38,276 nt of DNA. Origin: an uncultured Pelagibacteraceae bacterium. Lineage in GTDB: Bacteria; Pseudomonadota; Alphaproteobacteria; Pelagibacterales; Pelagibacteraceae. The notes under the pieces were generated by a model. That model was not told the origin of the DNA, searched no databases, and was given only the letters and a program-made list of their open reading frames with translations. This document shows positions 15,215-34,011 of this stretch, piece by piece. The first letter of the stretch is position 1; the number at the start of each line of letters is the position of its first letter. Made by a program: the position numbers and the translations under genes. Location: assembly GCA_902554035.1 (NCBI GenBank), contig CACDMX010000008.1, forward strand, positions 1-38,276, given 5' to 3'.

Positions 15215-15226
15215 GAGTTTAATGAA

Positions 15227-15257
15227 CTTGTACAATAAAAATTAACACTTATATGAA
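15227..15257 (+). promoter_or_regulatory. Putative heat-shock (RpoH, sigma-32) promoter for dnaK
   Basis: CTTG at 15227-15230, a 17-base spacer, then CTTATATGAA at 15248-15257. This matches the published alphaproteobacterial heat-shock consensus CTTG-N17-CYTATNTNNG at all specified positions except the final G. It lies in the 60-base gap between grpE and dnaK, about 18 bases upstream of the dnaK ATG, so dnaK-dnaJ could be transcribed separately from grpE. No CIRCE inverted repeat is present. Pattern match only. Confidence 0.6.
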
Positions 15258-15274
15258 ATCCAGAGAATAAAATT

Positions 15275-17200
15275 ATGAGTAAAGTAATTGGTATAGATTT
15301 AGGAACGACAAATTCATGTGTTGCTATCATGGAAGGAACACAGGCTAAAGTTTTAGAAAATGCAGAGGGTGCAAGAACAACCCCTTCAGTTGTAGCTTTT
15401 ACAGAAGAAAATGAAAAATTAATTGGTCAACCTGCCAAAAGACAGGCCGTAACAAACCCCGAAAATACAATTTTCGCAGTAAAAAGATTGATTGGAAGAA
15501 ACTTTGATGATTCAACTGTAAAAAAAGATATTGAGTCAGCACCTTTTAAAATAGTTAATTCTGAAAAAGGCGATGCTTGGATAGAAGCAAAAGGACAAAA
15601 ATATTCTCCATCACAGATATCAGCATTTATTCTACAAAAAATGAAAGAAACTGCAGAAAAATATTTAGGTCAAGAGGTTTCCAAAGCGGTTATTACTGTG
15701 CCAGCTTATTTTAATGATGCTCAAAGACAAGCTACAAAAGATGCTGGAAAAATTGCAGGCTTAGAAGTGTTAAGAATTATAAATGAGCCAACTGCAGCAT
15801 CATTAGCTTATGGCCTAGACAAAAAAGCAAATAAAAAAATAGCAGTTTATGATTTAGGAGGAGGAACCTTCGATGTATCTATACTTGAATTAGGTGATGG
15901 AGTATTTGAGGTAAAGTCTACAAACGGCGATACTTTTTTAGGTGGAGAAGATTTTGATAATACTATTGTAAATTATTTAATATCAGAATTCAAAAAAGAT
16001 AACGGTATTGATTTAAAATCAGATAAACTTGCACTTCAAAGATTAAAAGAGGCTGCTGAAAAGGCAAAAATAGAATTGTCATCCGCAGAGCAAACAGATG
16101 TAAATTTACCTTTTATTACTGCAGACAAAACTGGTCCTAAACATATAAATTTAAAAATGACTAGAGCAAAATTAGAAGCTCTTGTAGAAGATCTAATTAC
16201 TAAAACATTGCCCCCATGCAAAACTGCATTAAAGGATGCTGGTCTAAGTGCAAATGATATTAACGAAGTTGTAATGGTTGGTGGCATGACTAGAATGCCT
16301 AAGGTTATTGAAGCTGTCAAAAACTTCTTTGGAAAGGATCCAAATAAGAGTGTAAATCCAGATGAAGTAGTTGCTATGGGAGCAGCAATTCAGGCTGGAG
16401 TTTTACAAGGGGATGTTAAAGATGTTCTTTTACTTGACGTAACTCCACTTTCTCTTGGAATTGAAACACTTGGCGGAGTTTCAACAAAACTTATTGATAA
16501 AAACACAACAATACCTACTAAAAAAAGCCAGGTGTTTTCTACTGCTGAAGATAACCAGCCGGCAGTATCAATTAGAGTTTTACAGGGTGAAAGAGAGATG
16601 GCAGCAGATAATAAGGTCCTAGGCAATTTTGAGCTTGTTGGTATCGCTCCAGCTCCAAGAGGTGTGCCGCAAATTGAGGTAACTTTTGATATTGATGCAA
16701 ATGGAATAGTTAATGTTTCTGCAAAAGATAAGGGAACTGGTAAAGAACAAAAAATTCAAATTCAGGCTTCTGGAGGACTGAGCGAGGAAGAGATTAGCAA
16801 AATGGTTAAGGAAGCAGAGTCAAACAAAGAAGCAGATAAGAAAAAAAGAGAAGCCGTTGATTCAAGAAATCAGGCTGATACGTTATTACATTCTACCGAA
16901 AAAAACCTTAAGGAACATGGATCAAAAGTTTCAGAGGCCGACAAAAAAGCTATTGAAACAGCATCATCTAATTTGAGAAACTCTTTAAAAGGAACTGACG
17001 TAGAGGACATAAAAAAGAAAACACAAGAACTAGTACAGGCATCAATGAAATTAGGTGAAGCAATTTACAAATCTCAACAAAGCGCTAAGCCTGGTGATGC
17101 ACCAAAAGATGCGAAAAAAGAAGAAGGAAAAAAAGACGATAACGTTGTTGATGCAGACTTTGAAGAAGTGAAAGACGAAAATAAAGAAAAAAGCGCCTAA
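15275..17200 (+). CDS. dnaK: Chaperone DnaK (Hsp70)
   Basis: The ATP-dependent Hsp70 chaperone. The 641 residues begin with the phosphate-1 motif [15 protein letters not shown]; phosphate-2 is [13 protein letters not shown] near residue 195 and the adenosine motif [13 protein letters not shown] is near 333. The linker is [19 protein letters not shown] and the substrate-binding domain and lid follow. The C-terminus ends in a charged tail with [12 protein letters not shown], equivalent to the EEV-type end of bacterial DnaK. Length is normal. It sits between grpE and dnaJ behind a likely sigma-32 promoter. Base composition is less AT-rich than the neighbours, in keeping with a highly expressed conserved gene. 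Confidence 0.98.
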
Positions 17201-17228
17201 GCTAACAACAGTTTGTCTATAATTAGTT

Positions 17229-18353
17229 ATGGCAAAAAGAGATTATTATGACGTCTTGGGTGTAAGCAAAAGTTCTAACGCAGATCAAATTAAATCAGCA
17301 TACAGAAAACTAGCTGTTAAATATCATCCAGATAAAAATAAAGGAGATAAGGCTGCTGAAGAAAAATTTAAAGAAGCATCAGAAGCTTACCATGTATTAT
17401 CCAATTCTGAGAGAAAACAAAATTACGATAACTTCGGTCATGCAGCATTTGAGAATGGTGGAGGTGGAAGAGGTGGATTTGGTAATTTTGACTTTTCAAG
17501 CCATTTTTCAGATATATTTGAGGATTTTTTTGGTGAGGGTTTTGGTGGTGGAAGAAAAAACAGAAGATCAAACAATCGAGGTTCAGATCTAAGATACGAT
17601 TTATCCATCACACTAGAGGAAGCTTATGGAGGAAAAAAACAAGATATTAAATTCTCGACATCTGAAAAATGTGATGTTTGTAAAGGAAGTGGTTCTAAAC
17701 CTGGACACAATGTAAGCTCATGCTCTATGTGTGGTGGTCACGGGCAAGTCAGGTCAAGTCAAGGTTTTTTTACCGTACAACAAACATGCCCACAATGTTC
17801 TGGTTCAGGAGAAGAAATTACGAATCCATGTTCTGGTTGTAGTGGACAAGGTAAGAAACAAGCTACAAAAAGATTGTCTGTAACAATACCAAAAGGTGTA
17901 GACGATGGAACAAGAATAAGACTAGCCGGAAAAGGCGAGGCTGGTTCAAGAGGCGCAGGAAATGGGGATCTTTATTTATTTATAAATGTTTACTCTCATG
18001 AATTATTTAAAAGATCTGAAGAAAACTTATTTTTTGAGTGCCCAATTTCAATCGCTGATGCAGCCCTAGGAACCTCAATTGAAATACCAACAATTGATGG
18101 TGGAAAAGCAAAGATTAAAATACCTCCAGGCACACAAAGTGGAAAACAATTTAGACTAAAATCTAAAGGTATGCCTTTTATGCGTGGAGGAGGAAACGGT
18201 GATTTATATGTACAACTCAATACAGAAATTCCTATATCTTTAAATAAAGAACAAAAAGAGTTACTTGAAAAATTCAGAGAAATTGAAAATGAAAAATCAA
18301 ACCCAAGTATTAAAAAATTCTTCCAAAAAGCTAAGAGTTTTTGGAAAAATTAG
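17229..18353 (+). CDS. dnaJ: Chaperone protein DnaJ (Hsp40)
   Basis: Co-chaperone that delivers substrates to DnaK and stimulates its ATPase. The J domain (residues 1-70) holds the HPD motif in YHPDKNKGD; a Gly/Phe-rich linker follows (about 75-112). The zinc-finger region has four CxxCxGxG repeats: CDVCKGSG, CSMCGGHG, CPQCSGSG and CSGCSGQG, all intact. The C-terminal substrate-binding domains complete a full-length type I DnaJ of 374 residues. It follows dnaK by 28 bases. Downstream, only three bases separate it from a small membrane-protein gene that leads into dapB. Confidence 0.97.
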   Translation: MAKRDYYDVLGVSKSSNADQIKSAYRKLAVKYHPDKNKGDKAAEEKFKEASEAYHVLSNSERKQNYDNFGHAAFENGGGGRGGFGNFDFSSHFSDIFEDFFGEGFGGGRKNRRSNNRGSDLRYDLSITLEEAYGGKKQDIKFSTSEKCDVCKGSGSKPGHNVSSCSMCGGHGQVRSSQGFFTVQQTCPQCSGSGEEITNPCSGCSGQGKKQATKRLSVTIPKGVDDGTRIRLAGKGEAGSRGAGNGDLYLFINVYSHELFKRSEENLFFECPISIADAALGTSIEIPTIDGGKAKIKIPPGTQSGKQFRLKSKGMPFMRGGGNGDLYVQLNTEIPISLNKEQKELLEKFREIENEKSNPSIKKFFQKAKSFWKN

Positions 18354-18356
18354 AAA

Positions 18357-18527
18357 ATGGGATTAGAGGAAATTGTCCCAGCAATCTCTTTAATAGCTGT
18401 TTTGATATTGATTCTTCCAGCCTTTCTAAGTACTAACTCAAAATTGAAACAGTTTTTAACAAATATATCTATTTGGGCTATAATTATTTTAGTTGTTATG
18501 ATAATTTCATATCTTATCTTAAAATGA
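18357..18527 (+). CDS. Small two-helix membrane protein, function unknown
   Basis: A 56-codon reading frame fits exactly between dnaJ and dapB: its ATG is three bases after the dnaJ TAG and its TGA overlaps the dapB ATG as ATGA. The product has two hydrophobic stretches, roughly residues 6-24 and 37-55, separated by a short polar turn with STNSKLKQ, so it should be a helical hairpin in the inner membrane. I do not recognise the family. The tight packing with both neighbours argues strongly that it is translated. dnaJ-dapB adjacency is known in Alphaproteobacteria; the intervening small gene is easily missed by gene finders. Confidence 0.75.
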   Translation: MGLEEIVPAISLIAVLILILPAFLSTNSKLKQFLTNISIWAIIILVVMIISYLILK

Positions 18528-19300
18528 CAAAAATTAATTTAGCTGTAACTGGATGCTTAGGTAGAATGGGTCAGCAGATCATCAAATCTGCTAAATCTGA
18601 TAAAAATTTCAAATTAGTCACTGTTACAGAAAATAGAATTATTAACAAAAAAGTCGCTGGAATTAAGCCTAGCTTGAATACAGAAGATGCTTTTAAAAAG
18701 GCTGATTTAATTATAGATTTTACGGTTCCCAAGTGCACATTTGAAATTTTAAAAATTGCATCAAAAATAAAAAAAAGTGTTGTTATTGGAACAACCGGAT
18801 TTTCAAAAAAAGAGGAAATTTTGATAAAAAAGTATTCAAAAAAAATACCTATACTTAAAGCTGGGAATATGAGCTTGGGAATAAATTTATTAATGTACCT
18901 GACAGAGATTGCCTCAAAATCTCTTGGTAATAATTTTTTAAGTAAAATTTTTGAAATTCATCACAAACACAAAAAAGATCATCCATCTGGAACAGCTCTT
19001 ATGCTTGGAAAAGGTATAGCTGTAGGAAAGAATAAAGATTTTTATAAATTAATTGGTAAAAAATACTTAAACAAAAAGTCATTTCCTTATGGAAAAAAAA
19101 TTAATTTTAATTCACTTAGAAAAGGAGAGATTATTGGAGAACATGAAGTAACTTTTTCTAGTGGCAAAGAAGTCATAAAATTAAATCATGAGGCTTTTGA
19201 TAGAGCCCTCTATTCTCAAGGGGCTTTCACAGCAGCGAAATGGCTGATGAAAAAAAAGCCTGGATTATACTCTATGAGAGATGTTTTAAATTTTAAATGA
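18524..19300 (+). CDS. dapB: 4-hydroxy-tetrahydrodipicolinate reductase
   Basis: DapB catalyses the NAD(P)H-dependent step of the lysine/diaminopimelate pathway after DapA. The start at 18524 (MTKINLAVTGCLGRMGQQI) gives 258 residues and overlaps the preceding small gene as ATGA; the frame is open further upstream, but that part belongs to the small gene's region. The dinucleotide motif VTGCLGRMG is at residues 8-16, VIGTTGF in the middle, and the active-site signature EIHHKHKKDHPSGTAL is at about 145-160. The product feeds both lysine and peptidoglycan synthesis. It overlaps nth by four bases (ATGA). Confidence 0.96.
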   Translation: MTKINLAVTGCLGRMGQQIIKSAKSDKNFKLVTVTENRIINKKVAGIKPSLNTEDAFKKADLIIDFTVPKCTFEILKIASKIKKSVVIGTTGFSKKEEILIKKYSKKIPILKAGNMSLGINLLMYLTEIASKSLGNNFLSKIFEIHHKHKKDHPSGTALMLGKGIAVGKNKDFYKLIGKKYLNKKSFPYGKKINFNSLRKGEIIGEHEVTFSSGKEVIKLNHEAFDRALYSQGAFTAAKWLMKKKPGLYSMRDVLNFK

Positions 19301-19950
19301 ATGAAGCTCAAAGGGCAAAAATCGTTTTTAAAATTTTAAATAAATTTTATCCAAAAGTTAAAGTTCCTTTAAATAGCAGAAATACATTCACTTTATTAAT
19401 TTCTGTTCTTCTTTCTGCACAATGTACAGATTTAAATGTTAATAATGTTACAAAAAATATATACCCTAAATATAATAGACCAGAACACTTTGTTAAATTA
19501 GGTAGAAAACGAATTGAAAAATTGATCAGAAGAATCGGAATTTTTAGAATAAAATCAAAAAGTATTTATAATTTATCAAAAACTCTTATTAAAAATTATA
19601 ATGGCAAAGTTCCAAAAACTTTCAAAGAACTGGAAAATTTACCTGGCGTTGGTCATAAAACTGCTAGCGTAGTCATGGCTCAAGGATTTGGTCATCCAGC
19701 TTTTCCCGTAGATACACATATTCATCGCTTAGCTCAAAGATGGGGTCTAACCAGTGGTAAAAGTGTTATTCAAACTGAGGAAGATTTAAAAAGAATTTTT
19801 AATAAAAAATATTGGAATAAGCTTCACTTGCAAATAATTTTTTATGGCAGAGAATACTGTAAAGCCAGAGAATGTTACGGTTTAACTTGTAAAATATGTA
19901 CTTCTTGTTATCCTGATAGAAAAAAACCAATCAAAACAAAGAAAGCGTAA
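19297..19950 (+). CDS. nth: Endonuclease III (DNA glycosylase/AP lyase)
   Basis: Base-excision repair enzyme removing oxidised pyrimidines. The helix-hairpin-helix LPGVGHKTA holds the catalytic Lys121, and the catalytic Asp139 is in FPVDTHIHR; both align with E. coli Lys120 and Asp138. The C-terminal iron-sulfur loop is CKARECYGLTCKICTSC: cysteines at 188, 193, 198, 201 and 204. The canonical spacing is C-x6-C-x2-C-x5-C, which would need Cys at 188, 195, 198 and 204; position 195 is Gly, and 193 and 201 are extra cysteines. So the cluster is either ligated in a shifted way or altered. Length of 217 is normal. Coupled to dapB by ATGA. Confidence 0.95.
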   Translation: MNEAQRAKIVFKILNKFYPKVKVPLNSRNTFTLLISVLLSAQCTDLNVNNVTKNIYPKYNRPEHFVKLGRKRIEKLIRRIGIFRIKSKSIYNLSKTLIKNYNGKVPKTFKELENLPGVGHKTASVVMAQGFGHPAFPVDTHIHRLAQRWGLTSGKSVIQTEEDLKRIFNKKYWNKLHLQIIFYGREYCKARECYGLTCKICTSCYPDRKKPIKTKKA

Positions 19951-19951
19951 T

Positions 19952-20893
19952 ATGAAAATTTTAGGAATTGGAAATGCGATAGTTGATGTTATTTGCAAAG
20001 TTGAAGATAATTTTATTTCTCAAAATAATTTAACAAAAAGTACCATGAAATTAATTTTTGATGAAGGTGAGTTTAAAAAATTGTTAACAAATTTAAAAAT
20101 AGAAAAAACTGTATCTGGCGGATCTGTGGCGAACTCAATTGTAGGATTGTCTCAACTAGGAAATAAAGTAGGATTTATTGGCAAAGTAAATGATGATGAA
20201 TTTGGGAGCAAATATGAAGAAGGTTTAAAAAAAGAGAAAGTAAAATATATTTATTCAAAAAAAAAAGAGGAATTGCCAACAGGAACATGTTTAATTTTAG
20301 TTACACCTGACTCTGAAAGGACGATGTGTACGTTTTTAGGAACCGCAGGAAAAATTAACGAAAGTGATGTTGATGTGGATGCTGTCAAAGAAAGTGAGAT
20401 AATATTATTAGAGGGTTATCTATGGGATGAGGGTGATCCAAAGAAAGCATTTGAAAAAGCAATAACTAATGCAAATAAAGTTGCAATGTCTTTATCTGAT
20501 CAATTTTGTGTTGATAGACATAAACCACATTTTTTAGACTTGGTAAAAAATAGACTTGATGTTACTTTTGCTAATGAACAAGAGATAACTGCTTTAATTG
20601 ACGCAAAAAACTTTGATGAGGTAATTAACTTCTCAAAAGCACTTGGTAAATTATTAGTGATTACTCGTGGTGAAAAAGGAGCAGTTGCCATAAAAGGAGA
20701 GGAAGTTGTTGAATGTGGTATTAAAAAAAATATTAAGTTAGTTGATTTAACTGGTGCGGGAGATTTGTTTGCAGCAGGTTTTTTACATGGACATGTCAAT
20801 AATTTACATCTAGCTGAATGTCTCAAGAAAGGTACAGAAATGTCATCAAAAGTAATTCAACAAATTGGTGCAAGATTAAATCCAAATGAGTGA
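19952..20893 (+). CDS. PfkB family kinase, probable adenosine kinase-like
   Basis: A cytoplasmic ribokinase-family sugar/nucleoside kinase of 313 residues. N-terminal GIGNAIVDVICKV and GGSVANSIVGLSQLG at about residues 52-66 form the substrate pocket, and the C-terminal PfkB signature DLTGAGDLFAAGFLHG (about 268-283) carries the catalytic Asp and anion hole. The N-terminal pattern is that of the alphaproteobacterial adenosine kinase-like group rather than fructokinases, but the substrate cannot be fixed from sequence. It starts one base after the nth stop and overlaps the next gene by eight bases. Confidence 0.86.
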   Translation: MKILGIGNAIVDVICKVEDNFISQNNLTKSTMKLIFDEGEFKKLLTNLKIEKTVSGGSVANSIVGLSQLGNKVGFIGKVNDDEFGSKYEEGLKKEKVKYIYSKKKEELPTGTCLILVTPDSERTMCTFLGTAGKINESDVDVDAVKESEIILLEGYLWDEGDPKKAFEKAITNANKVAMSLSDQFCVDRHKPHFLDLVKNRLDVTFANEQEITALIDAKNFDEVINFSKALGKLLVITRGEKGAVAIKGEEVVECGIKKNIKLVDLTGAGDLFAAGFLHGHVNNLHLAECLKKGTEMSSKVIQQIGARLNPNE

Positions 20894-21509
20894 CAAATTT
20901 ATACACAAACTTTTTGCTACTCCAGTTTTTCAGTTTAAAATAAAAGACTATGAAAAACTCAATTTAGAATTAACAAGATATATTTATGATCTTTATGAAA
21001 ATGATAAGGAGGGCATTCAAAGATCCAATGTAAACGGATGGCATTCAAAAAATTTTAAAATTCAGAAAGAAAGTGCACCCTATAATTTTATTAAATCAAT
21101 TCATGGATATGTAAAGGAAGTAATGGTCGATGGTTTTGGATGGAAATACAATGCTGAGAAAGTTGGAATTACTGAAATATGGGCAATTATAAACAAAAAA
21201 AATACTTTTAATCAAATTCATAACCATCCTAATACATATCTAAGCGCAGCATACTACGTCAAAGCTCCAAAAAATTGTGGAGATATTCAGTTTCATGAAC
21301 CTAATGAAGTTAAAAAGTTTCGTCATCCTGTTATTGAACAAAAAAATGAATTGAATTCATCGGGCTTCAGTTTGAAAGCTGAAGAAGGTAATTTATTAAT
21401 ATTTCCGGCTTATCTTTATCACTCAGTCGGTAAAAATTTATCCTCAGAGGATAGAATAGTAATAAGTTTTAATGTTGATATTATTACATATAAAGACGCA
21501 AAATATTAA
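20886..21509 (+). CDS. Putative 2OG-Fe(II) oxygenase family protein (TIGR02466-like)
   Basis: A 207-residue protein resembling the TIGR02466 family, common in SAR11 and marine phage genomes and assigned to 2-oxoglutarate/Fe(II) dioxygenases. Seen: FATPVFQFKI at the N-terminus, QIHNHPNTYLSAAYYVKAP around 110-128 with candidate metal His112/His114, GDIQFHEPN at 132-140, and EEGNLLIFPAYLYHSVGKN with His179, then Arg190 in a position suited to bind 2-oxoglutarate. The substrate is unknown. The eight-base overlap with the kinase gene suggests co-translation and a possible shared pathway. It converges on the ArfA-like gene, with a 14-base AT palindrome (21501-21514) across both stop codons. Confidence 0.75.
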   Translation: MSDKFIHKLFATPVFQFKIKDYEKLNLELTRYIYDLYENDKEGIQRSNVNGWHSKNFKIQKESAPYNFIKSIHGYVKEVMVDGFGWKYNAEKVGITEIWAIINKKNTFNQIHNHPNTYLSAAYYVKAPKNCGDIQFHEPNEVKKFRHPVIEQKNELNSSGFSLKAEEGNLLIFPAYLYHSVGKNLSSEDRIVISFNVDIITYKDAKY

Positions 21510-21512
21510 TAT

Positions 21513-21620
21513 TTATTTTTTTCTTCTCTTAAAACTGCCCTTCCCCTTTTTTGGTTTAACTATTCTATTTCTAAATTTTTTATTTCTAAGTTCTTTTGCT
21601 ATTAAATTTATTTTTTTCAT
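21513..21620 (-). CDS. arfA: ArfA-like alternative ribosome-rescue factor, 35 residues
   Basis: A 35-codon frame, ATG at 21620 overlapping the upstream regulator stop as ATGA, TAA at 21515-21513. The peptide is strongly basic. Its core KKFRNRIVKPKKGKGSFKRR lines up with the E. coli ArfA segment PLFRQRVEKNKKGKGSY, including FRxR and the invariant KKGKGS. ArfA recruits RF2 to ribosomes stalled at the 3' end of non-stop mRNAs, as a backup for tmRNA. The hydrophobic C-terminal part of full-length E. coli ArfA is missing, so this resembles the short active form. The N-terminal INLIAKELRN matches the ArfA helix that precedes the core. Confidence 0.8.
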   Translation of the reverse strand: MKKINLIAKELRNKKFRNRIVKPKKGKGSFKRRKK

Positions 21621-22213
21621 TTTAAATAATAACCATCTTTACTACTTAAAATAAATTTTTCATCGTTGAAGTACTCTCTAATTTTTTTTCTAAGTCTATA
21701 AATATGTGTTTCAACAGTATGTGTTTCAAGTTCAGACGAATAATGCCAAATTTCATTTTGCAAAATTTCTATTGTCTTAGGCTTTGTTTGTTTTTTAAGA
21801 AAGAGTATTATATCGATCTCTCGTTCTGTTAATTTTAAGTTTTTATTTTTTGAAGAAATTATCCTAGAGTTCAAATTTAAATTATAGTTTTTTATATTTA
21901 TTTTTGATTGAAAATCATATCTTTGTTTAATTAAATGAACATTAATTTTATCAACTAATTTATTAAATTGAGCTGGAAAATTATCAATAACTAAAATATT
22001 TCTAATATCTATTTTATTATTATAATTTATAAAATCATGCGAAGAATTAGTTACGATTGTTGCTTGTCTTAAATTGTTATCTTTATTTAACTCGCTAAAA
22101 AAATCATGATGATTTTTATAATTTTTAATCTCAAATGATAAATAATTCTTAATTTCATCAAAAATATTATATAATTCAGTTATATTTACAAAATTTATAA
22201 CTTGTTTATTCAT
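21617..22213 (-). CDS. Winged-helix response-regulator-like transcription factor with degenerate receiver
   Basis: Start chosen at ATG 22213 (MNKQVINFVNITELY, 198 residues); the frame is open upstream, but that extension is antisense to the divergent gene. The C-terminal ~70 residues are an OmpR/PhoB-type winged helix: LTEREIDIILFLKK, then LETHTVETHIYRLRKKI as the recognition helix, and FILSSKDGYYLK as the wing. The N-terminal ~120 residues contain a short beta strand NILVIDN but I cannot find the phosphorylatable Asp/Lys set of a working receiver. It lies 13 bases from the divergent L,D-transpeptidase gene and is coupled to the ArfA-like gene, so it may control either. No histidine kinase is nearby. 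Confidence 0.78.
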   Translation of the reverse strand: MNKQVINFVNITELYNIFDEIKNYLSFEIKNYKNHHDFFSELNKDNNLRQATIVTNSSHDFINYNNKIDIRNILVIDNFPAQFNKLVDKINVHLIKQRYDFQSKINIKNYNLNLNSRIISSKNKNLKLTEREIDIILFLKKQTKPKTIEILQNEIWHYSSELETHTVETHIYRLRKKIREYFNDEKFILSSKDGYYLK

Positions 22214-22226
22214 AAAATAAAACTTT

Positions 22227-22715
22227 ATGCTATTAAAAATAAAAAATAAAGAGACATTAATAATAGATGATTTTAAATTTAGATGTTCAGTTGGAAAGAA
22301 AGGGATAAAAAATAATAGAATTGAGGGCGACAAAACTACTCCCAAAGGTCTTTTTACTTTGGGAAAACTCTATTATAGAGCTGATAGGGTAAAAAAACCT
22401 CAAACAAATTTAAAAGTAAATAAGATTAAAAAAACTATGGGTTGGTGTAATGATTCAAAAAGTAAATATTATAATTCTGAAGTCAAAATTAGTAAAAAAA
22501 TTGGATACGAAAAACTATACAGAAAGGATTATAAATATAATTATATTTTAGTAATAAATTATAATTCAAAAAAAATTCCGTACAAAGGGAGTGCCATTTT
22601 TTTACATTTAACAAAGAACTATAAACCGACTTTGGGATGTATCGCCTTAAAAGAAAAAGATTTTTTAATTATGCTGAAATTAATAAATAAAAAAACCAAA
22701 ATTAAAATATACTAG
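22227..22715 (+). CDS. L,D-transpeptidase (YkuD) family protein
   Basis: A 162-residue protein with the YkuD fold features: EGDKTTPKGLFTLG at residues 33-46 and the catalytic HLTKNYKPTLGCIAL with His127 and Cys138, corresponding to the family's H-x-S/T-x-G-C motif. YkuD enzymes make 3-3 crosslinks in peptidoglycan or attach lipoproteins to it. No signal peptide is visible, as in the short alphaproteobacterial subgroup, so the site of action is uncertain and a different cytosolic role is possible. Very lysine-rich. It is divergent from the winged-helix regulator (13 bases between start codons) and overlaps the convergent yggS by four bases. Confidence 0.82.
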   Translation: MLLKIKNKETLIIDDFKFRCSVGKKGIKNNRIEGDKTTPKGLFTLGKLYYRADRVKKPQTNLKVNKIKKTMGWCNDSKSKYYNSEVKISKKIGYEKLYRKDYKYNYILVINYNSKKIPYKGSAIFLHLTKNYKPTLGCIALKEKDFLIMLKLINKKTKIKIY

Positions 22716-23356
22716 CTCCTAGAACCAAATATTTTTGATCCTATCCTTAAATAAGTTGATTTAAATTTTAATGCTTCAATATAATCATTGGTCATTCCCA
22801 TGCTTAATTCTTTAAGATCCGTAGTTTTTAGTAATTCTAACATCTCCGAAAAATAAATATTTGGATTATTATCATTTGGTGGTAGGCACATTAAACCAAC
22901 AATGTCCAATTCATATTTTTTTTTACAATCTAAATAAAAATTTTCTAAATTTTCTATATCAATTCCATTTTTTTGAACTTCTTTTCCTATATTTATTTGT
23001 ATAAAAATTTTAGGCTTGATTTTTTTTTTTATTTGTTCATTAGCGATTTTTTCAGCCAATTTGATACTATCTAAAGAGTGGATGTAATCAAATAATGGTA
23101 GGGCAAATTTTACTTTATTTGTCTGAAGTTTTCCAACAAAATGAAGCTTAATACTTTTGAAATCATTTTTAACATCCGTCCATTTCTCAACTGCTTCCTG
23201 GATTTTATTTTCACCAAAGTGTTTATGACCAAAATTTATTAATGGTAATATTTTACTTAATGGAAAAGTTTTTGATACAGCTACAATTTCAGCTTTACTA
23301 TCATTTGACTGTATCTCATTTTTGAGTGATATTAAATTGTCAATAACATTATGCAT
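22712..23356 (-). CDS. yggS: YggS family PLP homeostasis protein
   Basis: A PLP-binding, alanine-racemase-fold protein without known catalytic activity that buffers pyridoxal phosphate and affects amino-acid balance. The PLP lysine is Lys29 in IVAVSKTFP; FGENKIQEAVEKW follows, LHFVGKLQTNK is near residue 76, and the C-terminus GSKIFGSRS is the phosphate-binding IG(S/T)xxFGxR motif. Length of 214 is typical. Its ATG abuts the ATG of the divergent TenI-like gene in the palindrome ATGCAT (23351-23356), so each gene's promoter must sit inside the other. The 3' end overlaps the L,D-transpeptidase gene by four bases. Confidence 0.93.
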   Translation of the reverse strand: MHNVIDNLISLKNEIQSNDSKAEIVAVSKTFPLSKILPLINFGHKHFGENKIQEAVEKWTDVKNDFKSIKLHFVGKLQTNKVKFALPLFDYIHSLDSIKLAEKIANEQIKKKIKPKIFIQINIGKEVQKNGIDIENLENFYLDCKKKYELDIVGLMCLPPNDNNPNIYFSEMLELLKTTDLKELSMGMTNDYIEALKFKSTYLRIGSKIFGSRS

Positions 23357-23917
23357 AATTTATTCAAAATCTACTACTTTATAGATGAATTTAACAGAGA
23401 AGAAATTCAAAAATTAAATAAAAAAATTATACTCATTTATAGAAATTATAAAGAAAACAATAATTTAAAATTAATAAAAAAAATAAAAAATATATGTAAT
23501 AAACAGAAACGAAAACTTTACATTTCTAATAATTTAAAGTTAGCACTTAGTTTAGATTTAGATGGATTGTATATACCCTCATTTAATAAACATTGTAACT
23601 ACCGTAATCTTAGTTCAAAAAAAAACTTCGAAATAATAGGATCTGCTCACAATTCAATTCAGATAAAAAATAAAGAAAAACAAGGATGTTCAACTATTTT
23701 TGTAGCACCAATATTTAAAACAAAAAAAAGCAGTTACTTCTTAGACATTTCAAGATTTAATTTGCTAACAAAAAATACAAAAAAAAAAGTTATTGCTCTT
23801 GGGGGTATAAATCACTCAAATTATAAAAAATTAAAATTAACCAATATTTCTGGTTTTGCTTCTATATCCTGGATAAAAAAAAACCGGCCTAAAAATATAG
23901 GCCGGCTTTTTAAATAA
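23351..23917 (+). CDS. Thiamine phosphate synthase/TenI-like protein
   Basis: A 188-residue protein with a TIM-barrel ThiE/TenI fold as far as can be judged: LYISNNLKLALSLDLDGLYIP near residues 56-76, IIGSAHNSIQIKNKEKQGCS at about 95-115, FVAPIFKTKKS at about 118, and VIALGGINHSNYKKL near 148. It is somewhat short and lacks several diphosphate-binding residues of true ThiE, so a TenI-like or specialised role is possible. SAR11 cells have reduced thiamine pathways, which makes a pathway assignment unsafe. The last twelve codons overlap a strong hairpin terminator, and the start codon is fused head-to-head with yggS. Confidence 0.65.
   Translation: MHNLFKIYYFIDEFNREEIQKLNKKIILIYRNYKENNNLKLIKKIKNICNKQKRKLYISNNLKLALSLDLDGLYIPSFNKHCNYRNLSSKKNFEIIGSAHNSIQIKNKEKQGCSTIFVAPIFKTKKSSYFLDISRFNLLTKNTKKKVIALGGINHSNYKKLKLTNISGFASISWIKKNRPKNIGRLFK
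23875..23911. terminator. Bidirectional intrinsic terminator inside the 3' end of the TenI-like gene
   Basis: An 8-bp GC-rich stem, CCGGCCTA (23884-23891) with TAGGCCGG (23898-23905), loop AAAATA. On the minus strand the stem is followed by nine T (from 23883 down to 23875), a textbook terminator 26 bases after the porin stop. On the plus strand it is followed by C and five T (23907-23911), so it may also stop the TenI-like transcript, six bases before that gene's stop codon ends. This is the only strong intrinsic terminator I found in the window. Confidence 0.9.
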
Positions 23918-23931
23918 TCTTAAAGTACTAA

Positions 23932-24975
23932 CTAGAATGCGAAAGATACAGATAATTCTGTTTCTTCGTATTTACCAGTTGTTCCTTCTGGATTGTCTGT
24001 TTCATACATAGACATACCTAACGTCATAGCTCCCATTGTATAAGTAGCTTGTATCGCAGTCATTTCAGTCTCTGCTTCTGTAACACCTGCAATATCTTGA
24101 ACTTGCTCAGTTACTTCAGCATATGACACTGAAAGATTGTCTTGTGTAAATGCAAATGCCATACCATCACTTTGAATGTCAGGTGCTTGCGTTGTGCTGT
24201 GACCTTTATTTTCAGTGTTTTGGAATGTTTCTTGGTAACCAATTGATATTGGGCCATTTGAATACAATAGGTATCCAGTGTTTCTTTCTAAGTCAGCTGC
24301 ACCAGCTGCAGTAGCTGCTGTGTCAACTGTCTCATAACCTAGACCTAATGTTAATCCCATACCTGATACTTTTGCAGTATAAGCTTCACCACCGTTAGAG
24401 TTTCCTCCAACACCACCAGCTGAAGCAGGACCTGCTCCACCGTTAGGGTCATAAGTTGCAGTTAAACTTACAGAAATATCTCCAATAGATAGAGCTGGAG
24501 TTCTGTAGTCTACTGAACCTGACTGAGTTGATGAACCAAAAGAATGGAAGTTAGATGAGTGAGTAGTACCATCCCATGCTTCTTCGTATGCTTTTGGAAG
24601 AACGTCGTCGATTGCATTTGCAGCAGAACCAGAAACGTCGTTAAACTGAACTGTACCTAGTGATCCCATTCCGATAGTCATTTGCGCAGAAGAGTTTAAT
24701 CCACCAGATGTAGCAGTGTTAGCTTGCTCCATGTCCATAGCAGAGAATACAGATACAGTAAAACCGTTATCTAATTCACCACTTGCTGTGAAATAAAGGT
24801 CAGTATCAACACCGATCCCTTTACCGTTTGATCCTACAGCACCTGCTTCATTACCTTGAGCAGATGACCATACAACCTGAGTATCTCCTGTTACAGAGTA
24901 ATCAGATGCATTTGCAGAAACAGCAGCAAGAGAACCAGCTAATGCTGATAAACCAACTTTTGTTAATTTATTCAT
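23932..24975 (-). CDS. Outer-membrane porin (SAR11 abundant type)
   Basis: A 347-residue exported protein. Start at ATG 24975 because a strong AGGAG lies at 24986-24982; an in-frame ATG at 25002 would place that site inside the gene. Signal peptide MNKLTKVGLSALAGSLAAVSANA, with cleavage plausible after ANA. The mature part is a series of short amphipathic strands rich in Gly, Ser, Thr and aromatic residues and ends in VSFAF, the C-terminal Phe signature of outer-membrane beta barrels. It would be a 16-strand general porin for nutrient uptake. The coding sequence is clearly less AT-rich than the neighbours. Followed by a strong terminator; divergent from a lipoprotein gene. Confidence 0.9.
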   Translation of the reverse strand: MNKLTKVGLSALAGSLAAVSANASDYSVTGDTQVVWSSAQGNEAGAVGSNGKGIGVDTDLYFTASGELDNGFTVSVFSAMDMEQANTATSGGLNSSAQMTIGMGSLGTVQFNDVSGSAANAIDDVLPKAYEEAWDGTTHSSNFHSFGSSTQSGSVDYRTPALSIGDISVSLTATYDPNGGAGPASAGGVGGNSNGGEAYTAKVSGMGLTLGLGYETVDTAATAAGAADLERNTGYLLYSNGPISIGYQETFQNTENKGHSTTQAPDIQSDGMAFAFTQDNLSVSYAEVTEQVQDIAGVTEAETEMTAIQATYTMGAMTLGMSMYETDNPEGTTGKYEETELSVSFAF

Positions 24976-24981
24976 AAATTT

Positions 24982-24986
24982 CTCCT
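24982..24986 (-). promoter_or_regulatory. Strong ribosome binding site of the porin
   Basis: AGGAG, six bases before the ATG at 24975 and within AAAGGAGAA. Most genes in this window have no recognisable Shine-Dalgarno, so this one stands out and decides the start. It fits very high translation of the porin. Confidence 0.85.
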
Positions 24987-24995
24987 TTATTAAGT

Positions 24996-25009
24996 TATTC
25001 ATATGAATA
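24996..25009. repeat. 14-base perfect palindrome upstream of the porin
   Basis: TATTCATATGAATA is its own reverse complement. It lies about nine bases upstream of the porin Shine-Dalgarno, within the 165-base gap before the divergent lipoprotein gene. It could be a repressor or activator site or a small hairpin in the porin 5' leader. No known regulator consensus is matched. Confidence 0.5.
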
Positions 25010-25140
25010 GGCGCTTTTTTATCAGCTTAACCCCTTCAAAAGCTCTTTTTTCTTTAAAAAATGGTATTTTTTTATCTATTGTTGCATAAATATCACACTA
25101 AATTAGTCTTTTGAATTAGCCATTTATTACGCTAAACACA

Positions 25141-25734
25141 ATGATTGTGATAAATTTTTTAAAAATCCTCAGATATTTATTAATTATAGTAATTGTTAGC
25201 TCTTCAATAAGTGGGTGTAAAAAAATTGATTGGGATGGTGAATTTGAACCTGATGGAAAAAAAAGGGCTAGAAAAAATGTTCAAGAAGGTAAAGGCTTTG
25301 GTACTGGTGGTCTTTTTAAAAGAAATAAGGGTGGTAATTTTGAGTTTGCTTCATCCAATGAACTTTGGAGAGCAAGTCTGGATACTTTAGATTTTATGTC
25401 TTTTTCAAATGTTGATTATTCAGGTGGTTTAATAATTACAGATTGGTATTCAGAAAGTGAAAATAATCAATCAATAAAAATTACTGTAAGATTTTTAAGT
25501 AACGAAATAAGAGCAGATGGAATAAAAGTCTCGCTCCATCAGAGAATTTGTGGCTCAAATAATTCTTGCTCAATTAAAGAAGTAAGAAGTTCTTTAAATG
25601 AAGAAATAAAAGATAAAATTTTAAGAAAAGCTGCATTATATAAGGAAATCAAAGACGAAAACGATCCCGACAAGAACTATAAGAACGAAGATGGTGAGAT
25701 AGAGTGGTGTGGAGACGGTAGAACTATTTGTTAA
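25141..25734 (+). CDS. DUF3576 family lipoprotein
   Basis: A 197-residue protein with a lipoprotein signal: hydrophobic segment to about residue 24 and lipobox SISGC. The body matches the DUF3576 family: GTGGLFKRNKGG, then SNELWRASLDTLDFMSFSNVDYSGGLIITDWY around residues 75-106 (described here by its key WRASLDTLDFM core), and RFLSNEIRADGIKV. The function is unknown; it is presumably in the periplasm, anchored to a membrane. In Alphaproteobacteria this gene commonly precedes leuS-lptE-holA, exactly as here, which supports a link with outer-membrane or LPS assembly by position. The C-terminus is charged and ends with two cysteines in the last 10 residues. Confidence 0.85.
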   Translation: MIVINFLKILRYLLIIVIVSSSISGCKKIDWDGEFEPDGKKRARKNVQEGKGFGTGGLFKRNKGGNFEFASSNELWRASLDTLDFMSFSNVDYSGGLIITDWYSESENNQSIKITVRFLSNEIRADGIKVSLHQRICGSNNSCSIKEVRSSLNEEIKDKILRKAALYKEIKDENDPDKNYKNEDGEIEWCGDGRTIC

Positions 25735-25783
25735 ATCAATTTATTGTTTATGACAAACAAATAAATTTTAAAAAAATTCTATA

Positions 25784-28333
25784 ATGGACAGATATAATTT
25801 TAAAACTACTGAAACTAAATGGCAAAAATATTGGGAAAAAAATAATACTTTTAAATCTAAATTAGATAAAAAAAAAAAGAAATTTTACTGCCTTGAAATG
25901 TTTCCATACCCTTCTGGAAAAATACACATGGGACATGTAAGAAATTATACAATAGGTGACGTTTTAGCTAGATACAAGTTAATGCAGAATTATAATGTAT
26001 TACATCCTATGGGATGGGACTCGTTTGGTATGCCTGCTGAAAACGCAGCAAAACAAAATAATTTAGATCCTAAAGATTGGACTAATCAAAATATTTCGAT
26101 AATGAAAAAACAACTTAAAAAACTTGGACTATCAATTGATTGGGATAGAGAAATTTCTACCTGTTCCTCGGATTATTATAAGCACCAGCAATTATTTTTT
26201 TTGGAACTCTATGAAAAGGGGCTTGTCTACAGAAAAGAAAATTATGTTAATTGGGATCCCATTGATGAAACTGTGTTAGCTAATGAACAAGTAATTGATG
26301 GAAAAGGTTGGAGATCAGGTGCAATTGTTGAAAGAAAAAAATTAAATCAGTGGTTCTTTAATATTTCAAAATTTTCTGAAGAATTATTAGATGGTCTTGA
26401 TAATTTAAATGAATGGCCAAAAAAAGTTACTACTATGCAAAAAAACTGGATAGGAAAATCATTTGGTTGTGAAATAGATTTCAAAGTAGAAGGCAATAAG
26501 GCAATAGATAAAATTAAATGCTTTACGACCAGGCCTGATACTTTATTTGGATTTTCATTCTTAGCATTATCAATTGATCATCCTATTTCTAAGTTTTATG
26601 AAAAAGACGATAATTTTATTAAATTTAAAGAGGAATGCTCAAAAACAGGTACAACAGAAGAATCAATTGCTCAGGCGGAAAAAATCGGTTTTAAGACTGA
26701 GTTAATTGCAGTAAATCCCCTTGATGAAAAAAATAAAGTACCAGTTTATTTTGCAAACTTTGTTCTTATGGATTATGGATTTGGTGCAGTTTTTGGCTGC
26801 CCCGCTCATGATCAGAGAGATTTAGATTTTGCAAAAAAGTATAAATTGAAAATTACACCAGTTGTCAAACCAATAAATTTTGATGGAGATTTTAAAATTA
26901 AAGATAAAGCTTATACTGATAAGGGTGTAATTTTCAATTCCAGTTTCTTAAATGGCTTAAAAGTGCCAGATGAGTCAATTATTAAAACAATTGAAATACT
27001 TGAACAAAAAAAATTAGGAAAAAAAAAAATTAATTTTAGATTAAAAGATTGGGGTGTATCTAGGCAAAGATATTGGGGTTGCCCTATACCGATTGCGTAC
27101 GATGAAAATAATAATATTGTTAAAATTCCAAAAGAAAATTTGCCTATTAATCTTCCAGAAAAAATTAAGTTAAATACTAAAGGAAATCCTCTTGATCATC
27201 AAAATGAGTGGAAAAACATAAAAATTAATGGAAAAAAATGTATAAGAGAAACTGATACATTAGACACGTTTGTAGATTCTTCATGGTATTTTTTAAGATT
27301 TTGTTCACCTAAAAATAAAGATTATGGTTATGATATCGATGAAATTAATTACTGGATGCCAGTAGATCAGTATATTGGGGGTGTTGAGCACGCAATTTTA
27401 CATTTACTTTATTCAAGATTTTTTATGCACGCAATAAACTATAAAAACGAAAACTTTAATTATAAGGAACCTTTTAAAGGGCTTTTTACACAAGGCATGG
27501 TTTGTCACGAAACATATAAAGACGAAAAAAACAACTGGCTAAGTCCGGATGAAGTTTTAAGCAAAGATGGAAAAAATTATTTTAAAAAAAATGATAATAA
27601 TGAAAGAGTAAAAGTGGGACCTAGTGAATCTATGTCAAAATCAAAAAAAAATACTATTGATCCTGAAAATATAATAGAAAATTATGGTGCTGATGCAGTA
27701 AGACTATTCATTCTTTCTGACAGTCCTCCAGAGAAAGATGTTCAGTGGTCAGAACAAGGAATGGTTGCATCTTACAAATTCTTACAAAAGTTTTGGATAC
27801 TCCACAAAAAAATTAAAAATTTTTCGTCTAAAAATACAAGCGATCAAAAAATCAATTCTTTTGAAATAAATCGTTTTACCAATGAAATAATAAAAAAAAT
27901 CACTCAGAATTTAGAAAGATTTCATTATAACGTTATTGTAGCTAATTTATATGAAACTTATAATTTTCTTATTAAATTCCTTAATAAACCATCAGATAAA
28001 AATAATCTTATTAAAAATTATATTAATATACTAAAAATTATGTCACCTATAATTCCTCATTTTGCAAGTGAATGTCTGGATGATTTAGGAGAAAAAAGTG
28101 AAAAAAGCTGGCCAAAAATAAATGAAGAATATCTTATTAAAGAAACTGTAAATATCGTTTTACAAATTAATGGAAGAAAAAAATCAATTATAATTAGTAA
28201 AAAAAATGTAGATAAAGATACATTAACTAATGAGATAAAAACAAACAATCAATATAATAAGTATTTGGAAAATAAAAAAATAAAAAGAATTATATATGTT
28301 AAGGATAGATTAATTAATTTAATTATAGAATGA
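25784..28333 (+). CDS. leuS: Leucyl-tRNA synthetase
   Basis: Charges tRNA-Leu and edits mischarged products. The 849-residue class Ia synthetase has the HIGH motif in [15 protein letters not shown] (about residues 42-56), the CP1 editing domain with TTRPDTLFG near residue 247 and the conserved [14 protein letters not shown] region near 335, and the KMSKS loop as [10 protein letters not shown] near 620. The anticodon-binding and C-terminal domains follow. Length is normal and all key motifs are intact. Its TGA overlaps the lptE ATG (ATGA). Confidence 0.98.
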
Positions 28334-28779
28334 AAAAAACAGCATTAATATTAAGTTTTTTATTGTTAGTAAATTGTGGTTATCAACCCATATTTTCAAG
28401 TAAAAATTCAAATTTTCTAATTGAGGAAATATCTTTTAATCAAAATGATAAAATCAGCTATAAAATTAAAAAAAACTTAAACTATTTAACTTCGACAAAA
28501 AATTATACGGAAATATATAAATTAAAATTAAATTCAGAAAAAAAAATAAGTATATCAAGTAAAGATTCTAAAGGAGACCCATTAATTTATAAAATGTCAA
28601 TAAATACAAATTTGGAAATTTATTCTGAGGGTAATATTATTAATCGTAAGAATATTTCAAAAAGTTTTAGTTATAAAAATACTTCCAATAAATTTGACTT
28701 AAAACAGTATGAAAAAACTATAGAAGATAATTTAATTGAAACAATTAAAGAAGAAATAATATTAATGTTATATAATTAA
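28330..28779 (+). CDS. lptE: LPS-assembly lipoprotein LptE
   Basis: A 149-residue lipoprotein: signal [16 protein letters not shown] with lipobox LVNC-GYQP, the GYQP(L/I)F motif after the lipid Cys being typical of LptE. LptE plugs the LptD barrel that inserts LPS in the outer membrane. The rest is poorly conserved, as in the family, and the size is right. Position between leuS and holA is the conserved location (leuS-lptE-holA) in Proteobacteria, which carries much of the identification. Translationally coupled to leuS by ATGA. Confidence 0.88.
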
Positions 28780-28782
28780 AAA

Positions 28783-29778
28783 ATGATAGTAAAATCTTTT
28801 GAAATGAACAAGATAAATAACTACAAATGTTCATTTTTTTTAGTTTATGGACATAACGATGGTTTAAAAAACGAAATTACAAAAAAATATTTTACCGATA
28901 AGTTTAAAGGAGAAATTTTAAGATATGAGGAAAAAGAAATTTTGGAAAATAAATTAGATTTTTTTAATGGTATTCTCTCAAAATCTTTTTTTGATGAAAA
29001 AAAACTATTTATTGTCTCTAGAGTAACTGATAAATTGAATGATCTAATTGAGGAAGTTCTAGAGAAGGAAGTAAAAGATATCACAATTTTGCTTAATGCG
29101 ACTAATTTGGAAAAAAAATCAAAACTTAGAAGACTATTTGAAAAAAATAAAAATACTATTTGTATTCCGGTATACGAAGATAACCTTCAAAGTTTGAGTA
29201 TAATAGCAAGAGATTTTTTTAGAATAAATAAAATTGCAATTTCCCAAGAAATAATAAACTTGCTTATTGAAAGATCTAGAGGCGATAGAGGAAATTTGCA
29301 AAATGAATTAGGAAAAATTCAATCATATTTGAAAACTAATAAAAGCATAGGCCCCGAGGAAATTTTAAAATTAACTGATCTTGCAGAAAACTATAACGTA
29401 TCTGAATTATTAGATAGTTGTCTTAATAAGAATTCAAAAAAAACAATTCATATACTTAATGAAAATAATTTTTCTTTAGAGGATTGTATTTTAATGATAA
29501 GATCTTTTGCAACAAAAGTGAAAAGGCTGCATAAAATTCATAGCGAATTTAATAAGAATAAAAATCTAGACTACGTAATTTCGTCATATAAACCTCCTAT
29601 ATTTTGGAAGGAAAAAGATATAATTAAAAATCAAGTGAAAAAAAACAATTTAAAACAAATTGAAGAAATGATTTTTCAAACAAATGAAATTGAGCTTTTA
29701 ATAAAGAAAAATTCCGCTAATGCTTTAAATATAATTTCAGACTTTATAATTAATGCATCAAAAGAAGTTAGTAATTAG
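28783..29778 (+). CDS. holA: DNA polymerase III subunit delta
   Basis: The delta subunit of the clamp loader, which opens the beta sliding clamp. The 331-residue protein is of normal length, with FFLVYGHNDGLKNEITKKYF at residues 18-37, the middle AAA+-like domain (LLNATNLEKKSKLRRLFEK near 101-119), RDFFRINKIAISQEIINLLIERSRGDRGNLQNELGK near 145-180 (key part ERSRGDRGNLQNELGK), and the helical collar domain. It begins three bases after lptE. It overlaps convergent parB by 11 bases, and an 8-bp AT hairpin (29770-29789) spans both stop codons. Confidence 0.93.
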   Translation: MIVKSFEMNKINNYKCSFFLVYGHNDGLKNEITKKYFTDKFKGEILRYEEKEILENKLDFFNGILSKSFFDEKKLFIVSRVTDKLNDLIEEVLEKEVKDITILLNATNLEKKSKLRRLFEKNKNTICIPVYEDNLQSLSIIARDFFRINKIAISQEIINLLIERSRGDRGNLQNELGKIQSYLKTNKSIGPEEILKLTDLAENYNVSELLDSCLNKNSKKTIHILNENNFSLEDCILMIRSFATKVKRLHKIHSEFNKNKNLDYVISSYKPPIFWKEKDIIKNQVKKNNLKQIEEMIFQTNEIELLIKKNSANALNIISDFIINASKEVSN

Positions 29779-30616
29779 ATTTAATTACTTCGATAATTTT
29801 ATTTAATTGATCCAAATCTTTATAGTTAAAAATTATACTTCCAGAATTATTTTTTTTATTTTTAATCAAAATATTTAGTCCAAGTTTTTCTGAAATTGAT
29901 AGCTCAAGTTGAGATAAATTTGGATCTTTAGATGAAGCTTTTCTTGATTTCTTTCTTTTAAAAATTTTAGCTAAACTTTCTGCTTGTCTTACTGATAATT
30001 TTTTTTCTATAATTTTTTTGGCAATAAATAAGGCGTTTTCTAACCCAACAAGAACCTTGGCATGGCCTTGGGTTAATTTGTTACTTTCAATCAGTTTGAC
30101 AACATCTTCGGGCAAACTTAACAAACGTAAACAATTTGCAACATGACTTCGACTTTTACCTATAAATTTTGAAACCTTTTCCTGATCGTATGAGAATTTA
30201 TCTATTAGTTTTTGATATCCTTTTGCTTCCTCAATTGCGTTTAAATCATGCCGCTGCACATTTTCTACAATGGCGAATTCAAGTGATTTAAGATCATCAG
30301 CTTCTGTTACAACAACTGGCACTTCATGAAAACCTGCATTTTGTGCTGCCAGCCATCTTCTCTCTCCTGCAATAATTTCATACTTGTTTTTTTGTTCATC
30401 TGATCTTCTTACAATAATAGGCTGAATGATCCCTCTTTCTTTAATGGAGTTTGTAAGTTCTTCAAGATTTTCTTTATCAAAAGTTTTCCGGGGTTGATAT
30501 TTATTTCTTACTAAATCACTTATTAAAACTTTATTTGTATTTTTTTCAGTTTTTGTCTCTCCTATCAAAGAAGATAAACCTCTGCCTAATCCTTTTTTTA
30601 ATTTAGAAGTATCCAT
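29768..30616 (-). CDS. parB: Chromosome partitioning protein ParB
   Basis: ParB binds parS and, as a CTP-driven clamp, spreads to form the partition complex. Seen in the 282 residues: the ParA-contacting N-terminus with LGRGLSSLIGE, CTP-domain boxes QPRKTF and IIQPIIVR, the C2 box AGERRWLAAQNAG (84-89 is GERRWL), the C3 box ENVQRHDLNAIEEA, the parS-reading helix-turn-helix near KVSKFIGKSRSHVANCLRLL, and a C-terminal dimer domain. The C2 consensus is GERRxR; here the last Arg is Leu89. The ATG overlaps the parA stop as TAATG. Its likely target parS lies 1.4 kb away in rsmG. Confidence 0.95.
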   Translation of the reverse strand: MDTSKLKKGLGRGLSSLIGETKTEKNTNKVLISDLVRNKYQPRKTFDKENLEELTNSIKERGIIQPIIVRRSDEQKNKYEIIAGERRWLAAQNAGFHEVPVVVTEADDLKSLEFAIVENVQRHDLNAIEEAKGYQKLIDKFSYDQEKVSKFIGKSRSHVANCLRLLSLPEDVVKLIESNKLTQGHAKVLVGLENALFIAKKIIEKKLSVRQAESLAKIFKRKKSRKASSKDPNLSQLELSISEKLGLNILIKNKKNNSGSIIFNYKDLDQLNKIIEVIKSNY

Positions 30617-31410
30617 TACGCAGCACTTTCAAATTCTTTTTCTTGATTAATAAATTCATCGGTAAAATTGAAATAAGATATACTTCCAGGACAATTTTTA
30701 TCGTATATTAAAACGGGAACTCCGTGCGATGGGGCCTCTGACAATCGAACATTTCTTGGAATAATTGTATTATAGACCTTTGATTTAAAGTAATCTCTTG
30801 CTTCTTTTTCTACTTGAGAAGAAAGTTTGTTTCTCTTATCATACATCGTTAAAAGAATACCTCTTATTTTGAGTTCCTTATTTAAATTTGCTTTAATTCT
30901 ATCAATAGTTTTCATTAGTTGTGTTAATCCCTCTAAAGCAAAAAATTCAGTTTGAAGTGGAACAACAAGAGAAAACGAAGCAACGAGTGCCATTACTGTT
31001 AGTAGACTTAATGATGGAGGACAATCAATGAAAATATAATCATAGTTATGACTAGAATCCTTTAAAAACGACATTAATTGATCTTTTAAAATAAATGCCC
31101 TTTTGCTATCCCCCGCTGTCTCTACTTCTAGACCAGATAAATCAACATTAGAACTTATCAAATCCAAATTATCAAATTCAGTCTTCTTGATAACTTCACT
31201 TATTAACTTATTTCCGTTCAATACTCCATATATGGTTTCACTTGAGTTTTCTGTATTTGATAATCCTAACCCTGTTGTAGCATTTCCTTGAGGGTCAAGA
31301 TCAACTACTAAAATTTTTTTTCCTTTTTTTGACAAACCAGCAGCAAGATTAATAACTGTTGTGGTTTTTCCTACCCCACCTTTTTGATTTATTATAGAGA
31401 TAATTTGCAT
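30616..31410 (-). CDS. parA: Chromosome partitioning ATPase ParA
   Basis: A deviant-Walker ATPase that segregates ParB-parS complexes on the nucleoid. The P-loop is NQKGGVGKTTT (signature Lys plus GKTT, residues 8-18), VVDLDPQGNATTGLG follows near 36-50, and IFIDCPPSLSLLT near 126-138 is the Walker B region. Length of 264 is standard for the chromosomal Soj/ParA type. It is four bases downstream of rsmG and overlaps parB by one base, giving the classic rsmG-parA-parB order next to chromosome origins. Confidence 0.97.
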   Translation of the reverse strand: MQIISIINQKGGVGKTTTVINLAAGLSKKGKKILVVDLDPQGNATTGLGLSNTENSSETIYGVLNGNKLISEVIKKTEFDNLDLISSNVDLSGLEVETAGDSKRAFILKDQLMSFLKDSSHNYDYIFIDCPPSLSLLTVMALVASFSLVVPLQTEFFALEGLTQLMKTIDRIKANLNKELKIRGILLTMYDKRNKLSSQVEKEARDYFKSKVYNTIIPRNVRLSEAPSHGVPVLIYDKNCPGSISYFNFTDEFINQEKEFESAA

Positions 31411-31414
31411 TATT

Positions 31415-33930: not shown

Positions 33931-34011
33931 AATCTCTATATCTCTATGTTTACCAAATTAATTTTTAGTAAGAAAATTTATATTAAATGGTAAAAAAGTA
34001 CATGATAATTT

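Follow-up and report, generated by a model that had tools for sequence, protein, structure and literature searches.

A GC-rich hairpin lies in the last codons of a TenI-like gene in an uncultured member of the Pelagibacteraceae, facing a convergent porin gene. It is most probably (we put the chance at roughly 0.84, judging from comparison of sequences) the porin's intrinsic terminator, taken up into the tail of the TenI-like gene: an overlap that comes and goes among relatives and that looks like ordinary genome compaction. The window, by which we mean the whole stretch of DNA analyzed, is 38,276 nucleotides long and contains the following features of relevance.

21513–21620, minus strand: ArfA-like gene, 35 amino acids with the frame at 21516–21620 (Pfam ArfA, 27.1 bits, over the Pfam cut-off)
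23351–23917, plus strand: TenI/ThiE-like gene, 188 amino acids (Pfam TMP-TENI), with its stop codon TAA at 23915–23917 and its last codons crossing the terminator
23875–23883, minus strand: T9 tail of the predicted porin terminator, read as A9 in the TenI-like reading frame
23884–23905, minus strand: stem-loop of the predicted porin intrinsic terminator, 8 pairs (6 of them G-C) and a loop of 6
23906–23914, plus strand: CTTTTTAAA, 3′ of the stem, a weaker T tail and the probable site of any plus-strand 3′ end
23932–25002, minus strand: porin gene (Pfam Porin_4), 26 nt from stop codon to stem

The arms of the stem, CCGGCCTA and TAGGCCGG, occupy positions 23884–23891 and 23898–23905 and enclose a loop of 6 nt. 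Read on the plus strand the order is A9, stem, CTTTTTAAA (which includes a C followed by TTTTT) and then the TAA of the TenI-like gene; in minus-strand RNA it is stem and then T9. A check of the letters agrees with the sequence-only reading, which had described an 8-bp stem with nine T on the minus strand inside the final TenI-like codons and, on the plus strand, CTTTTT ahead of the stop. Predicted folding energies are −22.4 kcal/mol (z −4.8) for the minus-strand RNA and −17.2 kcal/mol (z −3.8) for the plus-strand RNA, and in neither case did any of 200 shuffles fold equally well or better.

The hairpin had also been called the only strong intrinsic terminator of the window. A strict scan of the entire window, which required 6 or more uninterrupted pairs with 5 or more of them G-C and then 6 or more T within the next 8 positions, likewise returns a single site, the hairpin at 23884–23905 on the minus strand only, and 20 block shuffles return none. 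A looser scan of positions 15000–34000 finds 6 sites, against 7.2 expected by chance; the hairpin is among them, there listed on the plus strand, as the site with 8 pairs and 6 G-C. No Rfam family reaches its gathering score in the window, and a literature search, judged by titles and abstract openings, returned no description of a SAR11 porin/TenI-like terminator site. The A9 run before the stem may also be a slip site, judging by its letters: after a one-base shift, reading on through 23875–23892 would meet a TAA where the 5′ arm ends, ahead of any plus-strand 3′ end.

The question of which gene the hairpin belongs to was addressed by a survey of loci. TenI-like relatives at E ≤ 1e-20 occur in 296 of the 399 genomes of the genus; 156 loci were fetched from genomes with a TenI-like gene, and further relatives were added as the best 80 of 529. 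The 236 loci so gathered were reduced to 200 by removal of L011, the contig of which ends before the stop, and of 35 exact duplicates. Source records are nearly all named Pelagibacteraceae, Pelagibacterales or Pelagibacter (SAR11), one bin being named Flavobacteriaceae, and the named source genomes are mostly single-cell or metagenome assemblies. The hairpin is present in every one of the 174 distinct loci at which a porin was detected adjoining the TenI-like gene, and the distance from porin stop to stem is confined to 21–30 nt, with a mode of 25. In 24 loci neither an adjoining porin nor a hairpin was found after the TenI-like gene. The other 2 of the 200, L053 and L121, are less clear: they carry the hairpin although no porin was scored. 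By eye, the sequence beyond the hairpin reads like the end of a porin gene in both, the contig of L121 stopping 50 nt further on.

In 22 of 155 loci (L163–L184) neither a porin nor a hairpin was detected next to the TenI-like gene. The porin is located elsewhere in 21 of those 22 genomes, at 22 places: some 1.6 kb past the TenI-like gene in 20 genomes, which leaves space for one gene, and some 3.1 kb past it in G188. At 21 of these 22 porin loci the hairpin stands 23–29 nt past the porin stop, where a different gene now ends; at the remaining one, L164, there is an imperfect stem with two C.A pairs that was passed over by the hairpin finder and was found by eye. Since it is kept at the porin even where another gene intervenes, the hairpin belongs to the porin, as the sequence-only reading had held. 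In porin RNA it has the make-up of an intrinsic terminator, a GC-rich stem with a direct T run soon after the porin stop, and it is conserved with the porin whatever the neighbor.

In most genomes of L163–L184 the porin hairpin lies at the end of a frame of about 480 amino acids in place of the TenI-like gene. Among the 21 such loci with a scored hairpin the stop of this frame precedes the stem in 19 and falls in the 5′ arm in 1, and 1 has no frame; the frame in L178 is of 125 amino acids only.

Substitutions within the stem carry information on which strand's RNA is folded. Where one base of a G-C pair has undergone a transition, the RNA of one strand has a G.U pair and the RNA of the other a C.A pair. 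Among the 174 loci, and limiting the count to pairs flanked by Watson-Crick pairs, the interior exceptions give G.U in porin RNA 13 times and in TenI RNA not once; true mismatches number two. On a tree of the TenI-like proteins (FastTree, tails cut off) these exceptions need at least 11 changes, and were the strands equal the chance of 11 out of 11 falling one way would be ∼0.0005. In a second set, the porin loci with another neighbor, the wobble count is 4 to 0 for the porin strand. The T run is similarly lopsided: on the porin side its median is 9 (range 6–10), on the TenI side 4 (range 0–8), and it is the longer on the porin side in 173 of the 174 loci.

The edge of the loop is less clear. 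Ten loci, all of one stem type (CGGCCCGAGTAT...ATACTGGGCCG), have a G opposite a T at the inner end of the stem, which makes G.U in TenI RNA and C.A in porin RNA; counted plainly, they oppose the one-sided porin pattern. We read this G as a one-base bulge that keeps the adjacent A-T pair in both RNAs, and the case as ambiguous. Three other loci have A opposite C at the same edge, in the porin direction. Among the 71 loci whose loops have 5 or more bases, the pair just inside the stem points in the porin direction 24 times and in the TenI direction 11 times; most of these cases come from one stem type and some are chance loop bases, and we place no weight on the count. On balance, from the interior wobbles, the loop edge and the T runs together, porin RNA would seem to be the main target of selection.

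The strongest competitor, which we nonetheless consider unlikely, is a true bidirectional terminator selected for both genes, with the TenI stop loosely placed. The stem is symmetric, the plus side commonly has a T run of about 4, and the ten loci with the loop-edge G.T pair could favor the TenI direction. Predicted cases between convergent genes are known, as described in parts of PMC3027695 and PMC1852404. However, dual selection sits poorly with interior wobbles that fall in the porin direction only and with a plus-side T run that is almost always the shorter one; nor is there a hairpin after the TenI-like gene in the 24 loci that have no detected porin beside it. Furthermore, by the E. coli rule given in part of PMC4824070 the TenI stop is too near for effective termination.

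If the hairpin is the terminator of the porin, the remaining question concerns what happens to the TenI-like gene, and here the position of its stop codon is instructive. Of the 174 stops, 89 follow the stem and 35 precede it; the other 50 fall within the stem-loop (5′ arm 7, loop 25, 3′ arm 18). They range from 7 nt before to 27 nt after the stem, with the caveat that an indel error in an A run of an assembly would shift the apparent stop. In the window the stop lies 9 nt past the stem. Intrinsic terminators in general suggest a plus-transcript end ∼8 nt past the stem, and this end was assumed. By this measure a complete stop would be missing at the 3′ end in 35 of the 174 loci, the window among these. 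Were the same DNA read in its two unused frames, a complete stop would be missing in 44 and 74 of the 174; since the real frame has 35, non-stop ends are not enriched. The first 131 loci had hinted at avoidance of such ends, with a stop complete by 8 nt past the stem in 107 loci versus 87 and 70 for the unused frames; this shrank to 139 versus 130 and 100 in the 174, related sequences being counted repeatedly in both sets, and we claim no more than the lack of enrichment.

On the tree, which is a FastTree of short proteins, the non-stop state needs at least 20 changes; 200 shufflings of the labels gave a mean of 32.3 and a minimum of 27. Given 20 changes against 32.3, the state is passed on for some time before it switches. 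Such turnover is evident close to the window: of its six nearest relatives, 3 are non-stop-prone and 3, among them L198 at 74% identity, have the stop in the loop.

These data bear directly on the proposal of the sequence-only reading that the hairpin might be a device for keeping the TenI-like protein low. In the form considered here, a terminator inside the gene would generate stop-less mRNA, and trans-translation would then hold the protein down, as for arfA and brfA. In the window the hairpin and T tract do precede the stop, and tmRNA, SmpB and an ArfA-like gene are all present. Three of the six nearest relatives likewise have their stop beyond the probable 3′ end, and the state is in part inherited. 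Nonetheless, the state is confined to a minority of loci, is no commoner in the real frame than in the unused ones and changes often, and L198 already has its stop in the loop; the 24 TenI-like genes without a detected porin neighbor have no hairpin beside them, and the interior wobbles favor the other strand. A conserved control of this kind is rejected on the number of loci, the number of changes and the lack of enrichment over unused frames, and a selected one is very improbable. The same reading had held that a hairpin outside the gene in close relatives would tell against control. A stop wholly before the stem does occur, in the 35 loci counted above, and there is none among the 25 nearest relatives listed, so that the point stands for the wider set of loci and not for close kin.

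A local form of control has a slim chance: co-option in this species and some lineages, such that lagging translation of the TenI-like gene would give stop-less mRNA and tmRNA-tagged protein, while translation that keeps up would give porin antisense, the translation of one gene thereby tuning both. The poorest candidate, a palindrome that acts at the DNA level (in protein binding or as a cruciform) and has no part in RNA termination, draws on the conspicuousness of a GC palindrome in AT-rich DNA but does not predict the one-sided interior wobbles, a T9 on one side or the tight distance from the porin stop, and we give it next to no weight.

We return to the porin terminator absorbed by compaction, which had been offered in the sequence-only reading as the alternative to control and is the one backed by the comparison of relatives. 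The hairpin would end the porin mRNA on the minus strand. The TenI-like gene would be packed against this terminator, and because it is so packed its frame would end at whichever in-frame stop comes first in or around it. The encoded tail (about RPKNIGRLFK) is probably dispensable: the TMP-TENI match covers residues 28–175 of 188 (E 5e-18), and the hairpin thus encodes tail residues outside the TenI domain.

On the plus strand the hairpin could serve as a weaker, reverse-direction terminator. The effect of ribosomes on such elements has been measured in E. coli; in the parts of Li et al. (PMC4824070) that deal with distance from the stop, a terminator 5 bp after a stop drops from ∼90% to <10% efficiency, full strength is regained beyond ∼30 bp, a terminator placed within a gene's final stretch, 38 bp ahead of the stop, drops to 40% of its value, and terminators within the first 100 bp of a gene still work. 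Because ribosomes in E. coli repress terminators near stops, most plus transcripts would run through, if SAR11 is alike. A translating ribosome would, by analogy, mostly keep the hairpin open; most TenI-like mRNA would continue into porin antisense, with translation ending normally at the TAA, and a minority, poorly coupled to translation, may terminate at ∼23911–23914 with no stop codon and be removed through tmRNA. Some non-stop TenI-like mRNA, at a low level, is possible by this analogy. The genes for such clearance are at hand: an alpha-type tmRNA and SmpB are encoded in this genome. No ArfB was seen in the genome, at 86% completeness, because both RF-1-domain frames (352 and 359 amino acids) have lengths that fit RF1 and RF2.

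Several known systems resemble the arrangement in part. According to the introduction of PMC4824070 certain terminators extend into the gene upstream of them, and any that work inside coding sequence would yield non-stop RNA. The terminators treated there share with the present one the placement of hairpin and T tract, inside the end of a frame or directly after it; unlike them, the SAR11 terminator belongs to the facing gene, and the overlapped TenI-like gene is a bystander. The pairs RP703–RP704 and RP826–RP827 of Rickettsia prowazekii, as presented in part of PMC3027695, are likewise convergent genes of a reduced genome that are separated by a single hairpin flanked by an A run and a T run. 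Those runs are equal (7 and 7, 5 and 5), and one region measures 1910 bp, whereas in the SAR11 window the T run is 9 versus 5 and the hairpin is in or at the coding end.

Bacillus subtilis brfA and E. coli arfA also have a terminator-like hairpin ahead of the stop codon (parts of PMC6881298 and PMC8012679). For brfA, PMC6881298 describes in part how a coding-region terminator makes non-stop mRNA, internal termination and tagging being shown with reporters; for arfA the same control is described in the relevant part of a review (PMC8012679). In contrast to both, the SAR11 hairpin serves the opposite strand, its overlap with the gene is not conserved (a terminator before the stop is found in 35 of the 174 orthologous loci, with at least 20 changes), and the product, a TMP-TENI family protein, is no rescue factor.

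The TenI-like protein scores under the NCBIfam cut-offs for both ThiE and TenI. A second, distant relative (35% identity, in a frame of 242 amino acids) is encoded at 85192–85683 on contig C2 of this genome, which totals 1,070,742 bases in 28 contigs. It is perhaps the housekeeping ThiE; if so, the gene in the window would be a divergent paralogue.

Together these analyses would make the site an instance, in a streamlined genome, of a terminator that shares its DNA with the final codons of the gene opposite. The comparative approach used here (swapped neighbors, one-sided wobble pairs, unused frames) shows which of two convergent genes a hairpin serves. Moreover, the drift of the stop around a fixed hairpin across species provides a natural series in which stop position could be compared with reverse termination and non-stop mRNA.

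The ArfA-like gene, ∼2.3 kb from the hairpin, is real: its 35-amino-acid frame has six matches in the PDB, all to ArfA chains (E 0.002–0.006). ArfA family matches occur in 53 of 73 genus genomes, above the cut-off in 34. Its proximity, remarked on in the sequence-only reading, proves uninformative: the TenI-like and ArfA-like genes lie within 4 kb of each other in 47 of the 48 genomes with both listed, and the 48th, G044, has a contig end at the start of its TenI-like match. Nearness that is near constant in the genus cannot explain a non-stop trait that varies. No stable hairpin is predicted in the window's copy, 193 of 200 shuffles folding at least equally well, and a tblastn search with its frame, short for tblastn at 35 amino acids, returned no match in a phage collection; part of PMC12753301 describes an ArfA-domain gene carried by pelagiphage HTVC027P. 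In the part of the review that treats its distribution (PMC8012679), ArfA is confined to some beta- and gamma-proteobacteria. The 12 ArfA-like loci that were read all have short frames of 35–43 amino acids closed by an ordinary stop, and one frame, as listed, has no ATG: a compact ArfA-like gene with a normal stop is thus found in an alphaproteobacterium (SAR11), beyond the range stated in that review.
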